Source of the DNA: a bacterium
Lineage (GTDB): Bacteria > Vulcanimicrobiota > Vulcanimicrobiia > Vulcanimicrobiales > Vulcanimicrobiaceae
NCBI GenBank assembly: GCA_021790935.1
Contig: JAJYFL010000013.1
Coordinates: forward strand, 1-64,000
Length of the DNA: 64,000 bases
Reading direction: 5' to 3'
The notes beneath the pieces are model-generated. The model did not search any database. It was given only the letters and a program-made list of their open reading frames with translations, and was not told where the DNA came from. A program made the translations under genes and the position numbers. This document shows positions 16,306 to 44,346 of this stretch, in pieces; position 1 is the first letter of the stretch; each line of letters opens with the position of its first letter.

Positions 16306-16346
16306 GTGCTGACTCCAAGAGCGGCAAGAGTGATGTAGGGCCGAAG

Positions 16347-16388
16347 CCCCGGCGAAGAGCCCCGCGTAGCGGCAACTCCTCGCCGGGG
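16347..16388 (-). terminator. Intercistronic hairpin between the two pstS genes
   Basis: CCCCGGCGAGGAG and CTCTTCGCCGGGG form a 13-bp stem with a single G-U pair in the 113-bp gap between the two pstS genes. No U-run follows, so it is more likely an mRNA-stabilising or partial-termination structure that raises output of the promoter-proximal pstS over the permeases than a full terminator. Confidence 0.5.
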
Positions 16389-37843: not shown

Positions 37844-38626
37844 GTGCTTCTGGTCATAAAATACGGCGGGAACGCCATGGGCGCCACGGGGGACGAAGCG
37901 CTCCTCGAGGAGCTGGCGCTGCTCGTAGGGGCCGGCCACGAGCCGGTGGTCGTCCACGGCGGAGGGCCCGAGATCGACCGCGCGCTCGCCGAGCGCAAGG
38001 TGCCGACCACCCGCATCGACGGCCTGCGCGTTACCGACGCCTCGACGCTCGTCATCACCGAAGCGGTCCTTTGCGGAACGCTCAACAAACGGCTTGTCCG
38101 TGCCTGCCTGCAGCACGGTATACCGGCCGTCGGCATATCCGGAGAAGACGGCGGCCTCGTGCGAGCGCGCCGCGCGCGCGCTCGCGGCGGCGACGATCTG
38201 GGCTTCGTCGGGGAGATCGTCTGCGTCGAACCCGCCCTCCTGCGCGTGCTCTCGAACGGCGGCTTCGTGCCCGTCGTGGCCCCGCTCGCGGTCGCGCTCG
38301 ACGCGACGCACGCATATAACCTGAACGCCGATACCGCAGCCGGGGCCATAGCGGGCGCGTTACATGCGGATGCCTTCGTCGTCATCACCAACGTCGCCCG
38401 CGTCTTGCGCGACCCGAGCGAACCCGGCAGCGGCATCGACACCCTCTCGCTCGAGCAGGCACGTGCCTTCGCCGAATCGGACGTCTGCCGGCAAAGCATG
38501 CGCCCGAAAATTCTCGCTGCCGTCGCCGCCGTCACCGCCGGCGCGCGCGCGAGTTACGTCTGCGCTGCCGGTCCCGGTGCGATCGCTCGCGCCCTCGCTG
38601 GAGATGCGACGGTCGTCGCAGCTTGA
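37844..38626 (+). CDS. argB: N-acetylglutamate kinase ArgB
   Basis: The 260-residue kinase phosphorylates N-acetylglutamate. It begins LLVIKYGGNAMG, the ATP-binding start of the amino-acid-kinase fold, and has VVVHGGGPEIDRALAE near 38-53, YNLNADTAAGAIAGAL near 160 and the C-terminal family pattern. GTG 37844 is preferred over ATG 37817 because AAGGGG lies at the right distance and the upstream frame overlaps the operator. The gene is divergent from the argF-argD operon. Confidence 0.92.
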   Translation: MLLVIKYGGNAMGATGDEALLEELALLVGAGHEPVVVHGGGPEIDRALAERKVPTTRIDGLRVTDASTLVITEAVLCGTLNKRLVRACLQHGIPAVGISGEDGGLVRARRARARGGDDLGFVGEIVCVEPALLRVLSNGGFVPVVAPLAVALDATHAYNLNADTAAGAIAGALHADAFVVITNVARVLRDPSEPGSGIDTLSLEQARAFAESDVCRQSMRPKILAAVAAVTAGARASYVCAAGPGAIARALAGDATVVAA

Positions 38627-38652
38627 CGCGCGACCGGAATCGATGCTATGGT
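38623..38652 (+). promoter_or_regulatory. Promoter of the methionine leader
   Basis: TTGACG (38623-38628) and TATGGT (38647-38652) are separated by 18 bp and match a sigma70-type promoter at five and four of six positions. The leader ATG at 38660 lies only seven bases beyond the -10, so transcription should begin at or next to the start codon. Confidence 0.55.
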
Positions 38653-38659
38653 GTCCGCA

Positions 38660-38737
38660 ATGTTTCGGCTTACCATGCGAATGTTTGGTTTTATGTGCTG
38701 CTCGCAGAAGCGTGCGGCGCGGGCGGTTTTTGCATAG
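38660..38737 (+). CDS. Met/Cys-rich attenuator leader peptide of metY-metX
   Basis: A 25-codon ORF begins MFRLTMRMFGFMCC and contains four Met codons (including the start) plus two consecutive Cys codons in its first 14 residues, far above chance. It ends with TAG at 38735-38737, whose last base starts GGCGAGG, the segment that can pair with the terminator's 5' arm. Slow translation at Met or Cys codons would leave that segment free and favour read-through; smooth translation would cover it. The peptide itself probably has no other function. Confidence 0.7.
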   Translation: MFRLTMRMFGFMCCSQKRAARAVFA

Positions 38738-38810
38738 GCGAGGCTCGGAACGAGATCATCGACTGTGACTAAAAAGCCCCTCGCCGCAAGCGGCGAGGGG
38801 CTTTTGTTAT
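38737..38810 (+). terminator. Attenuator: antiterminator segment and intrinsic terminator before metY
   Basis: The terminator stem AAAAGCCCCTCGCCGC (38772-38787) pairs perfectly with 38790-38805 and continues into TTTTGTTATT. An upstream segment GGCGAGG (38737-38743) is complementary to CCTCGCC (38779-38785) within the 5' arm, with two further pairs across a bulge, so the two structures exclude each other. The metY start lies about 100 bases further on. Confidence 0.75.
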
Positions 38811-38908
38811 TCCTTATCTCTCGTAATCTGGAACGACCCAACCTCGCACGAAGCTCCGGCATCGCAGGCATCGCCCGCGGACTCATGGCCGGGATAAAGG
38901 AACGCACG

Positions 38909-40207
38909 ATGTCCCCGACACTCGAAGGGCAGCAGCCCCGGCGATTCGACACCGTCGCAATTCACGGCGGCCACGGCGGCGACCCGACCACCAAATCGCG
39001 CGCCGTCCCGATCTACCAAACGACCTCCTATACCTTCGATAACGCCGATCATGCCGCACGTCTCTTCGCACTCGAAGAGTTCGGCAATATCTACACGCGC
39101 ATCAACAACCCCACGACCGATGTCCTCGAACAGCGCCTCGCTCGGTTGGAGAACGGCGTCGCCGCGCTCGCCGTCGCGAGCGGTCAGGCCGCTAATCTGT
39201 ACGCCATTTTAAACCTGGCGCGTGTCGGCGATCGCATCGTTTCGTCCGCTTCGCTCTACGGCGGAACCTACAACGCCTTCGCCTACACGCTCCCGCGCTT
39301 CGGCATCGGCGTAGACCTCGTCGACTTCGACGACCTGGCGCGCGTTCGCGCCGCCATCGCGCCGAACACCAAAGCGATCTTCGCGGAATCGATCGGCAAT
39401 CCGAAGATCGACGTGCTGGACCTCGAGGGCGTGGCCGCCATCGCGCGCGAGTTCGGCATTCCGCTCATCGTCGACAACACGCTCGCGACGCCGTACTTGC
39501 TGCGGCCCATCGAGTACGGTGCGAACGTCGTCGTACACTCGGCGACCAAGTTCATCGGCGGGCACGGCACCGCCATCGGCGGCGTTATCGTCGATGGCGG
39601 AAACTTCGACTGGAGCGCGAGTCCGCGCTTCGCCGATTTCGTCGAGCCGGACCCCTCGTACCACGGCATCCGCTATCACGCGGCGTTCGGGCAAGCTGCG
39701 TATGCCGTGAAGGCGCGCGTGCAACTGCTGCGCGACGTCGGCGCGGCGCTATCTCCCTTCAACGCCTGGCTGCTTCTGCAAGGCCTCGAAACGTTAGGTT
39801 TGCGCGTCGAACGCCATTGCGCGAACGCCCAAATCGTCGCCGAATATCTCGCCGTGCATCCGAAAGTCGCCTCCGTGGCGTATCCCGGGCTTGCGGGTCA
39901 CGACTCCCGCGCGCGCGCCCAAAAGTATCTTCCCAAAGGGCAAGGCGCGATTCTCACCTTCCGGATTCGCGGCGGCGAAGCCGTCGCCAAGCGCTTCATC
40001 GATCGCTTGAAGCTCTTCTCGCTGCTGGCCAACGTCGGCGACGCGAAGTCGCTCGTCATCCATCCGGCGACGACGACCCACCAGCAACTGAGCGAGCGGG
40101 AGCGCCTACGCAGCGGCATCGACGAATCGACGGTCCGTCTCTCCGTGGGTATCGAAGATGCGCGCGATATCGTCGCCGATCTCGCGCAAGCATTGAGCGA
40201 TGATTGA
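38909..40207 (+). CDS. metY: O-acetylhomoserine sulfhydrylase MetY
   Basis: The 432-residue PLP enzyme combines O-acetylhomoserine with sulfide to give homocysteine. Evidence includes FDTVAIHGGHGGDPTTKSRA, the PIYQTTSYTFDNADHAA block, ASGQAANLYAILNL near 95, PLIVDNTLATPYLLRPIEYGA and VVHSATKFIGGHGTAIGG with the Schiff-base Lys near 210. The ATG at 38909 has AAAGG eight bases upstream; a GTG inside the terminator at 38765 is rejected as a start. It overlaps metX by eight bases. Confidence 0.92.
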   Translation: MSPTLEGQQPRRFDTVAIHGGHGGDPTTKSRAVPIYQTTSYTFDNADHAARLFALEEFGNIYTRINNPTTDVLEQRLARLENGVAALAVASGQAANLYAILNLARVGDRIVSSASLYGGTYNAFAYTLPRFGIGVDLVDFDDLARVRAAIAPNTKAIFAESIGNPKIDVLDLEGVAAIAREFGIPLIVDNTLATPYLLRPIEYGANVVVHSATKFIGGHGTAIGGVIVDGGNFDWSASPRFADFVEPDPSYHGIRYHAAFGQAAYAVKARVQLLRDVGAALSPFNAWLLLQGLETLGLRVERHCANAQIVAEYLAVHPKVASVAYPGLAGHDSRARAQKYLPKGQGAILTFRIRGGEAVAKRFIDRLKLFSLLANVGDAKSLVIHPATTTHQQLSERERLRSGIDESTVRLSVGIEDARDIVADLAQALSDD

Positions 40208-41201
40208 AACCACGATCGACGTCGGCCGCCTCGACCTGGTCGAAGGCGGCCGTCTAGGCGGCGTGCGCCAGCACGCAACCTGCTACGGCACTTTGAACGC
40301 CGATCGCAGCAACGCCATATTGGTTCCTCACGCGTTGACGGGCAGCAGCCGGGTTGCAGAGTGGTGGAAGGGATTGATCGGCGAGGATCGCCTACTCGAT
40401 CCGCGCCAATGGTACGTCATCGGCATCAACGCGCTCGGGAGTTGCTACGGTTCGACGGGTCCCGCTTCGGCGGCTCCCGACGGCTCGCCGTACGGATCGC
40501 GCTTCCCGCAGGTCACCGTGCGCGATATCGTGCGGGCACAGACGCGCGCGTTGGAACGGCTTGGTGTCGAGCGCCTCGCGCTCGTCATCGGGGGGTCGCT
40601 CGGGGGCATGCAGGCGCTGCAGTGGGCGGTGGATTTTCCCGAGCGCGTCCGAAACGCGATCGTCATCGGTTCGCACGATCACCACTCGGCGCTGGGCATC
40701 GCCCTCAACGCGGTCCAGCGCGACTGCATTCTGAACGATCCACTCCAGGGAATCAGAACCGCGCGCAAAATCGCCATACTCACCTACAAGAGCGACGCGC
40801 TCCTACGCCGGCGTCACGGGCGCAACGCCGACCGAGCCGGCCGCCATCGCTTCGACGTCGAGGGGTATCTGGAACACCAAGCCGATCTTTTCGAGCGGCG
40901 CATGGACCCAGCCAGTTACGTCGCGCTCACCCGCGCGATGGATTCGTTCGACGTCCGCCCCCCTCATCCCGAACCCGTCGAAAGACGCGCGACGCAGAAT
41001 ACGCCGGCGCTTCGTTTCGTCGGGATATCTTCGGACTGGTTGTTTCAGCCGAGCGACGTGCGCGCGGCAGCCGGGCGCTTCGCTGCGCTCGGTTTCGACG
41101 CTCGCTATCTCGAGCTGCAATCCGAGCACGGCCACGATGCCTTCCTCGCAGAGCCACAAACGCTCGCGACGCTGCTCGCAACGGAGATCCCTGGGATCTA
41201 A
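40200..41201 (+). CDS. metX: Homoserine O-acetyltransferase MetX
   Basis: The 333-residue alpha/beta hydrolase acetylates homoserine, supplying the MetY substrate. Key motifs are ILVPHALTGSSR (oxyanion region), GGSLGGMQALQWAVDFP with the nucleophilic Ser near 132, and EHGHDAFL with the catalytic His near 315. Between residues about 255 and 268 the sequence PPHPEPVERRA is encoded by an interspersed repeat that is read in frame, in the linker before the last strands. It is convergent with tyrA, and their stop codons overlap by three bases. Confidence 0.92.
   Translation: MIETTIDVGRLDLVEGGRLGGVRQHATCYGTLNADRSNAILVPHALTGSSRVAEWWKGLIGEDRLLDPRQWYVIGINALGSCYGSTGPASAAPDGSPYGSRFPQVTVRDIVRAQTRALERLGVERLALVIGGSLGGMQALQWAVDFPERVRNAIVIGSHDHHSALGIALNAVQRDCILNDPLQGIRTARKIAILTYKSDALLRRRHGRNADRAGRHRFDVEGYLEHQADLFERRMDPASYVALTRAMDSFDVRPPHPEPVERRATQNTPALRFVGISSDWLFQPSDVRAAAGRFAALGFDARYLELQSEHGHDAFLAEPQTLATLLATEIPGI
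40966..40992. repeat. Short interspersed repeat, copy 3 (inside metX)
   Basis: On the minus strand CTTTCGACGGGTTCGGGATGA is a diverged match to the tsaD and argG repeats. It lies inside metX and is translated as HPEPVER. Confidence 0.6.
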
Positions 41202-44147: not shown

Positions 44148-44172
44148 CGTTCAACTCCCAAAAGAAGACACG

Positions 44173-44249
44173 AAAAAACCCTCGCCGGATCGGCGAGGGT
44201 CTGCGAAACCGGGTGCTCTATCCCGTTATGCGCAAACGAACCCTCACCG
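44173..44249 (-). terminator. Attenuator: antiterminator segment and terminator before pheA-aroF
   Basis: On the minus strand a perfect 10-bp stem, ACCCTCGCCG with CGGCGAGGGT (44200-44178), closes a three-base loop and runs into six T residues (44178-44173), 26 bases before the operon start codon. Upstream CGGTGAGGGT (44249-44240) can pair with the terminator's 5' arm over all ten bases with one G-U pair. The competing pairings are the hallmark of attenuation. Confidence 0.8.
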
Positions 44250-44309
44250 GCCCGGCGGGCGGCAAAAGTAATAATAATACGCAAACGCGAGCGAGCGATC
44301 CGTCAACAT
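44244..44309 (-). CDS. Tyr/Phe-rich attenuator leader peptide of pheA-aroF-aroH-tyrA
   Basis: A 21-codon ORF on the minus strand contains FAYYYYFC: four consecutive Tyr codons flanked by Phe, in a short peptide ending with TGA at 44244-44246. The stop lies inside the antiterminator segment 44240-44249, and the last Tyr codon is 18 bases upstream of that segment. A ribosome stalled for charged tRNA-Tyr or tRNA-Phe would free it, while a ribosome reaching the stop would mask it. This is the classical design for aromatic biosynthetic operons. Confidence 0.75.
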   Translation of the reverse strand: MLTDRSLAFAYYYYFCRPPGR

Positions 44310-44317
44310 GTGCTGCC

Positions 44318-44346
44318 ATAGAACCACGAATCCATCGCTCTGTCAA
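44318..44346 (-). promoter_or_regulatory. Candidate promoter of the aromatic leader
   Basis: On the minus strand TTGACA (44346-44341) is a perfect -35; 17 bp later TTCTAT (44323-44318) is a poor -10. If used, transcription would start within a few bases of the leader ATG at 44309, as in the methionine leader. The rest of the 44148-44490 gap holds the attenuator and the ribosome site of the divergent ankyrin gene. Confidence 0.4.

Follow-up and report, generated by a model that had tools for sequence, protein, structure and literature searches.

What controls the metY-metX operon in a member of the Vulcanimicrobiaceae? Methionine genes are usually controlled by SAM riboswitches or T-boxes. In the window (the whole 64,000-nt stretch of contig JAJYFL010000013.1 that was analysed), metY and metX are instead preceded by a promoter, a short open reading frame (ORF) rich in Met and Cys codons, and an intrinsic terminator (Table 1). 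We consider it very likely that this leader acts as a ribosome-mediated transcription attenuator, through which metY-metX respond to the supply of methionine and probably also to that of cysteine.

Table 1. Positions of the leader elements, genes and related features in the window
Feature	Position	Strand	Remarks
Promoter	38623..38652	+	-35 TTGACG (38623-38628), 18-nt spacer, -10 TATGGT (38647-38652; extended -10 TGcTATGGT, 38644-38652)
Leader peptide ORF	38660..38737	+	MFRLTMRMFGFMCCSQKRAARAVFA, 25 codons, TAG stop at 38735-38737
Putative regulatory codons	38675..38701	+	Met6, Met8, Met12, Cys13, Cys14; conserved in congeners; Met/Cys core of the class
Predicted antiterminator segment	38714..38732	+	complementary to the terminator 5' arm; inside the ORF tail
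GGCGAGG, weaker alternative pairing	38737..38743	+	-12.8 kcal/mol; GGCGAGA in both congeners
Intrinsic terminator	38772..38812	+	15-bp GC-rich hairpin (38772-38805), then GTTATT in a T-rich tail
metY hairpin	38849..38899	+	45 nt within this interval; P1 and P2 of ~7 bp each; 7-nt 3' bulge
metY, O-acetylhomoserine sulfhydrylase	38909..40207	+	TIGR01326, 660 bits vs cut-off 495
metX, homoserine O-acetyltransferase	40200..41201	+	best match PRK00175, 330.4, just under the curated cut-off of 331
Aromatic leader	44172-44346	minus	MLTDRSLAFAYYYYFCRPPGR, leaderless-type promoter, before pheA-aroF

The leader of metY-metX and its predicted mode of action

In the classical attenuators of trp, his, ilv and thr operons, a leader ORF with cognate codons is followed by an antiterminator and an intrinsic terminator that are mutually exclusive. 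The metY-metX leader resembles these, with two differences, namely, specificity for Met plus Cys and a probable leaderless start. The 25-codon ORF and the terminator of the original prediction are both present, the terminator lying between the ORF and the first gene, metY; the last G of the stop codon is shared with GGCGAGG, and the complementary CCTCGCC is found at 38779-38785. Codons for the amino acid that the operon produces are abundant in the ORF, and the presence of at least five Met or Cys among 24 residues has a chance of ~1e-4 at the local background. The leader RNA also folds more stably than its shuffled versions (z = -4.1). The -10 element ends 7 nt short of the leader ATG (38660), so that transcription probably starts at or beside this ATG, which would make the leader mRNA leaderless. 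The same promoter-to-ORF spacing is seen at the leaders of 35 metY or hom-metY loci, and a search of the genome itself for the leaderless-type pattern returned 17 matches vs 1 with a reversed control.

From the codon content and geometry of the leader, we infer that the signal is tRNA charging. With ample charged Met- and Cys-tRNA, the ribosome would reach the stop codon and cover the ORF tail, the terminator hairpin would form, and transcription would halt short of metY. A shortage of charged Met- or Cys-tRNA would stall the ribosome at one of the five Met and Cys codons, leaving the tail segment, which begins 12 nt past the last Cys codon, free to pair with the 5' arm of the terminator, and metY-metX would be transcribed. 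An untranslated leader would fold on itself and terminate by default. Methionine limitation should, however, also lower fMet-tRNA-dependent initiation and thereby favour default termination, against this main reading; hence, the response may peak when limitation is mild, and the Cys codons may serve as a second input.

Conservation and codon content of the leader

In two congeneric species, the whole arrangement is kept at 93% identity. Within codons 1-14, 8 of the 42 nucleotides vary among the congeners, and the five Met and Cys codons are all kept: the changes between the Met codons are T/S, F/L/S and F/L, and the one change in a Cys codon is synonymous. The spacer 3' of the terminator shows many changes and indels.

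We then gathered metY loci across the family and across Candidatus Eremiobacterota, the phylum in which the named close relatives of this genome place it. In many of these loci, hom lies directly upstream of metY, and the leader then precedes hom. To avoid choice by composition, the search for leaders before metY or hom-metY used only the promoter spacing and the presence of a short ORF, a procedure that is blind to codons. A leader was present in 35 of 54 metY or hom-metY loci, yielding 29 distinct peptides. Residues 2-20 of these peptides include 102 Met and 70 Cys among 547 (19% and 13%, respectively), against ~5 of each (about 1%) expected from the genes of the window, a large bias, although the relatedness of the sequences forbids a literal reading of p-values. 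Conservation of the Met and Cys codons, on which the original prediction had been made to depend, is thus seen both in the congeners and in related leaders. The cores of the leader peptides include MMCPMCCMQM, MMCSMCRMQM, MAIMAMCA, MMMMCC, RMMTMAMCC and MFGFMCC; one genus has seven near-identical leaders (MISF[AT]SRMSTCC...) with few Met codons. In the first 60 nt of the leaders, ATG triplets are distributed over the three reading frames as 102:6:1, which, together with the synonymous Cys change, lends indirect support to translation of the leader ORF. The architecture search left 19 of the 54 loci with a leader missing or undetected (some of the contigs are truncated), so that the phylum does not use this control throughout. 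In the sister family, no leader was detected at any of the three metY loci (L147, L148, L149).

Could the leader sense cysteine only, in the manner of the mycobacterial polycysteine leaders, with the Met codons being secondary? The Cys codons are nearest to the antiterminator, MC occurs in 25 and CC in 16 of the 29 peptides, and the enzyme family TIGR01326 is named as also able to make cysteine. Nevertheless, Met outnumbers Cys (102 vs 70) and the product of the operon is homocysteine and methionine, and we regard Cys-only sensing as unlikely.

Leaders of the same architecture stand before other operons. The parallel with the aromatic operon drawn in the original prediction holds: the leaderless-type ORF before pheA-aroF contains Tyr/Phe codons (MLTDRSLAFAYYYYFC), and GGTGAGGG lies opposite the terminator ACCCTCGCC...GGCGAGGGTTTTTT. 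A YSYWW leader (Tyr/Trp) precedes a probable DAHP synthase gene, FLVRVLL (Leu/Val) precedes ilvB, and thrC and a probable aspartokinase gene are preceded by Thr-, Ile- and Met-containing leaders (DAHP synthase, ilvB, thrC and aspartokinase were named by eye from translations). At two loci, one in the genome itself (L230, contig C11) and one designated L173, leaderless-type leaders were noted before leuA, ilvB, thrC and the probable aspartokinase and DAHP synthase genes. Two relatives (L232 and L233) have, on the minus strand some 2.2 kb before the hom-metY leader, leaders with 8 and 10 successive Thr codons; the gene that follows them begins like threonine synthase. The pattern search of the genome itself gave no leader before cysK, before a second cysK-like gene, or before the covered stretch of metH, outside which the metH start lies. 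As far as such sequence patterns go, attenuation looks like a general scheme for amino acid operons in this genome.

These sister operons bear on a further reading, in which the leader encodes a ligand-sensing arrest peptide, a Met/Cys-rich nascent chain that would halt its ribosome upon binding S-adenosylmethionine or a metal. Clusters of Cys and Met such as MCSMCC could bind thiophilic metals, and the leader peptide is short and conserved within genera. Between genera, however, the spacing and the neighbours of Met and Cys differ freely (compare MMCPMCCMQM, MAIMAMCA and MFGFMCC), and the sister operons combine the same architecture with pathway-fitting Thr, Tyr/Phe, Trp or Leu/Val codons, which are not explained by Met/Cys ligand binding. 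An arrest peptide is, accordingly, an improbable explanation.

Pairing within the leader RNA and riboswitch searches

The 7-bp pairing of GGCGAGG with CCTCGCC, proposed originally as the antiterminator, is real but is not the best one available: its computed energy is -12.8 kcal/mol, vs -19.5 kcal/mol for the duplex of 38714-38732, in the ORF tail, with 38772-38786. Because it is the weaker of the two, and one base shorter in the congeners, we rejected GGCGAGG as the antiterminator. In the congeners, 0 of the 19 sites of the ORF-tail segment are changed, and the segment has counterparts in other genera. For 35 loci, the leader between codon 11 and the terminator was compared with its own shuffles for complementarity to the terminator 5' arm. 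The mean z was -2.35, with 24 of the 35 loci in the top 5% of shuffles, and in 23 representatives, cognate antiterminator-terminator pairs averaged -19.1 vs -16.8 kcal/mol for non-cognate pairs, a difference equalled in 0 of 20,000 permutations; as the leaders share ancestry, the binomial and permutation figures overstate independence. In the 35 loci, the segment that pairs follows closely on the 3' side of the Met/Cys core and, for the most part, falls within the ORF. By these comparisons, the predicted antiterminator and the terminator are co-evolving across loci.

When the RNA was folded from 38714, so that its first part was masked and the hairpin had been made no further than the 5' arm, the antiterminator was obtained, whereas the terminator resulted if the tail was masked or no ribosome was assumed. 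In these computations, the two structures are mutually exclusive, and the antiterminator is freed by a stalled ribosome. With the hairpin complete, equilibrium folding from 38714 prefers the terminator, so that the switch must operate kinetically, like known attenuators.

The same pairing argues against the view that the hairpin merely terminates argB and that the short ORF is incidental. The argB gene ends at 38626 on the same strand, 145 nt upstream of the hairpin. Yet promoter, leader, antiterminator and terminator remain one unit in genera whose adjacent genes differ, and the antiterminator co-varies with the terminator, which makes the argB reading very improbable.

Searches with Rfam detected no family at threshold in the window, in the leader or in the sampled Eremiobacterota loci, and a permissive threshold added solely sub-threshold matches, mostly on the terminator palindrome; the absence of a SAM riboswitch from the leader had been anticipated in the original prediction. 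Under strict filters, which weak copies could escape, SAM-I was found in none of the genomes of the same family and in 9 of 147 genomes of the phylum, all in distant families (f14-f16). SAM-I (RF00162) controls methionine genes without an ORF, by sensing SAM directly, and has no match here. Thus, although SAM riboswitches and T-boxes are the usual controls of methionine genes, we give next to no credence to the already disfavoured view that one of them controls this operon from the leader, with the ORF as a by-product, given that Rfam matches are lacking in the window and leader and that SAM-I in the phylum is confined to f14-f16.

A second RNA element, and methionine leaders in other bacteria

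Between the terminator and metY lies another hairpin, with a bulge consensus near ACUCAU and with P1 adjoining the ribosome-binding site. In an alignment of 14 sequences and 14 pairs, 92% of the cells are standard pairs, and 9 of the 14 pairs show two-sided changes; sliding the pairing partners abolishes the covariation signal. The covariance model built from it (R1) scores 63.7 bits in the window; with matches of at least 47 bits, 24 Eremiobacterota genomes each have a single copy, located before metY, and no confident match lies elsewhere. Rfam contains no counterpart. In hom-metY loci, the hairpin overlaps the last hom codons, so that part of its conservation could be coding. Its retention in two lineages whose operon has lost hom, namely, the genus of the window and a single species of another genus, speaks for a role as RNA. 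We guess that it exerts translational control of metY. That metY is under two stacked RNA controls, the Met/Cys attenuator and a new translational hairpin element whose bulge might bind a pathway metabolite, is a possibility that we raise tentatively and with more doubt than belief.

Several further observations concern this hairpin. The spacer before metY (38826-38897) reads as the last hom codons (IWNDPTSHEAPASQASPADSWPG, stop) and is, by its sequence, a remnant of a hom-metY operon; the hom gene of this genome is now on contig C11, beside thr and ilv genes. A hairpin before the metY start in the sister family (L147-L149) folds alike and is bulged, but is unmatched by R1 and was not counted, and a weak R1 match in a distant family (L263) was dropped as apparent coding sequence. 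The window contains another weak match to the hairpin model (17.6 bits, 16342-16387).

Methionine leader peptides as a type are already known from Campylobacter jejuni and Streptomyces lividans. MetL of C. jejuni, a short ORF of 20 codons, 3 of them Met, located before the methionine biosynthesis genes metBA, was proposed in 2013 (PMC3847290), and its translation start was reported from Ribo-seq in 2025 (PMC11955535). A short RNA ends just past its stop codon, and antitermination upon shortage of Met-tRNA has been proposed. In contrast to the leader described here, MetL was sought as an ORF with a ribosome-binding site and not as a leaderless one, the passages on MetL in PMC3847290 mention no Cys codons, and they confine it to C. 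jejuni, C. coli and C. doylei. The metL leader of S. lividans (MSTTSDRTPATEATTTPGARCMCRRMCAF) is leaderless and contains Met and Cys codons, but it precedes metNIQ, for methionine import, and its authors saw no typical intrinsic terminator (PMC8079986). Mycobacterial polycysteine sORFs, predicted in PMC1262725 and treated by Canestrari et al. 2020 (as cited in PMC13236596), are leaderless, with runs of sulphur amino acid codons before sulphur metabolism genes; as characterized in the passages concerned, they differ in containing Cys only, preceding cys operons, having no conserved terminator and acting translationally. The present leader, with more Met than Cys and a strong terminator, falls outside that Cys-only, terminator-less class.

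A scan of metY upstream regions in 80 mostly unrelated genomes for Met-rich ORFs gave isolated matches besides those in Flavobacteriaceae. In that family, Met/Cys-rich short ORFs occur in 7 of 29 metY upstream regions, whereas shuffles gave 0.4 on average and 2 at most; this is the only comparison that counts here because these peptides were picked by composition. Six of the seven loci (L166, L185, L186, L188, L196, L205 and L209) have tandem leaders, with a terminator behind each leader in four of the six, and in ten scorable leader-terminator units, the antiterminator ranked 0 to 18 of 200 shuffles. SAM-I or SAM-II riboswitches lie near several of these loci. Leader-peptide attenuation before amino acid operons has been mentioned for Flavobacterium psychrophilum, in a transcriptome report that, in the portions of its main text bearing on this, does not name methionine (PMC9723704).

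Our literature search found no paper on leader peptides in Eremiobacterota; an attenuator survey by Lopatovskaya et al. 2010, doi 10.1134/S0026893310010164, cited in PMC4833913, may contain an earlier prediction of a Met attenuator. What is new is a conserved Met-plus-Cys attenuator, with a terminator and a co-evolving antiterminator, before hom-metY-metX in many genera of the phylum. A lineage without detectable SAM-I would regulate its methionine operon by ribosome-mediated attenuation, and the leader peptide seems to belong to a genome-wide series that serves Thr, Leu/Val, aromatic and sulphur amino acids. The recurrence of Met-plus-Cys leaders in Eremiobacterota, Flavobacteriaceae and, from the literature, Streptomyces suggests that a joint sensor of sulphur amino acids has been repeatedly invented, and attenuation by methionine poses a puzzle of its own, in that the scarce amino acid is also needed to initiate the leader peptide.
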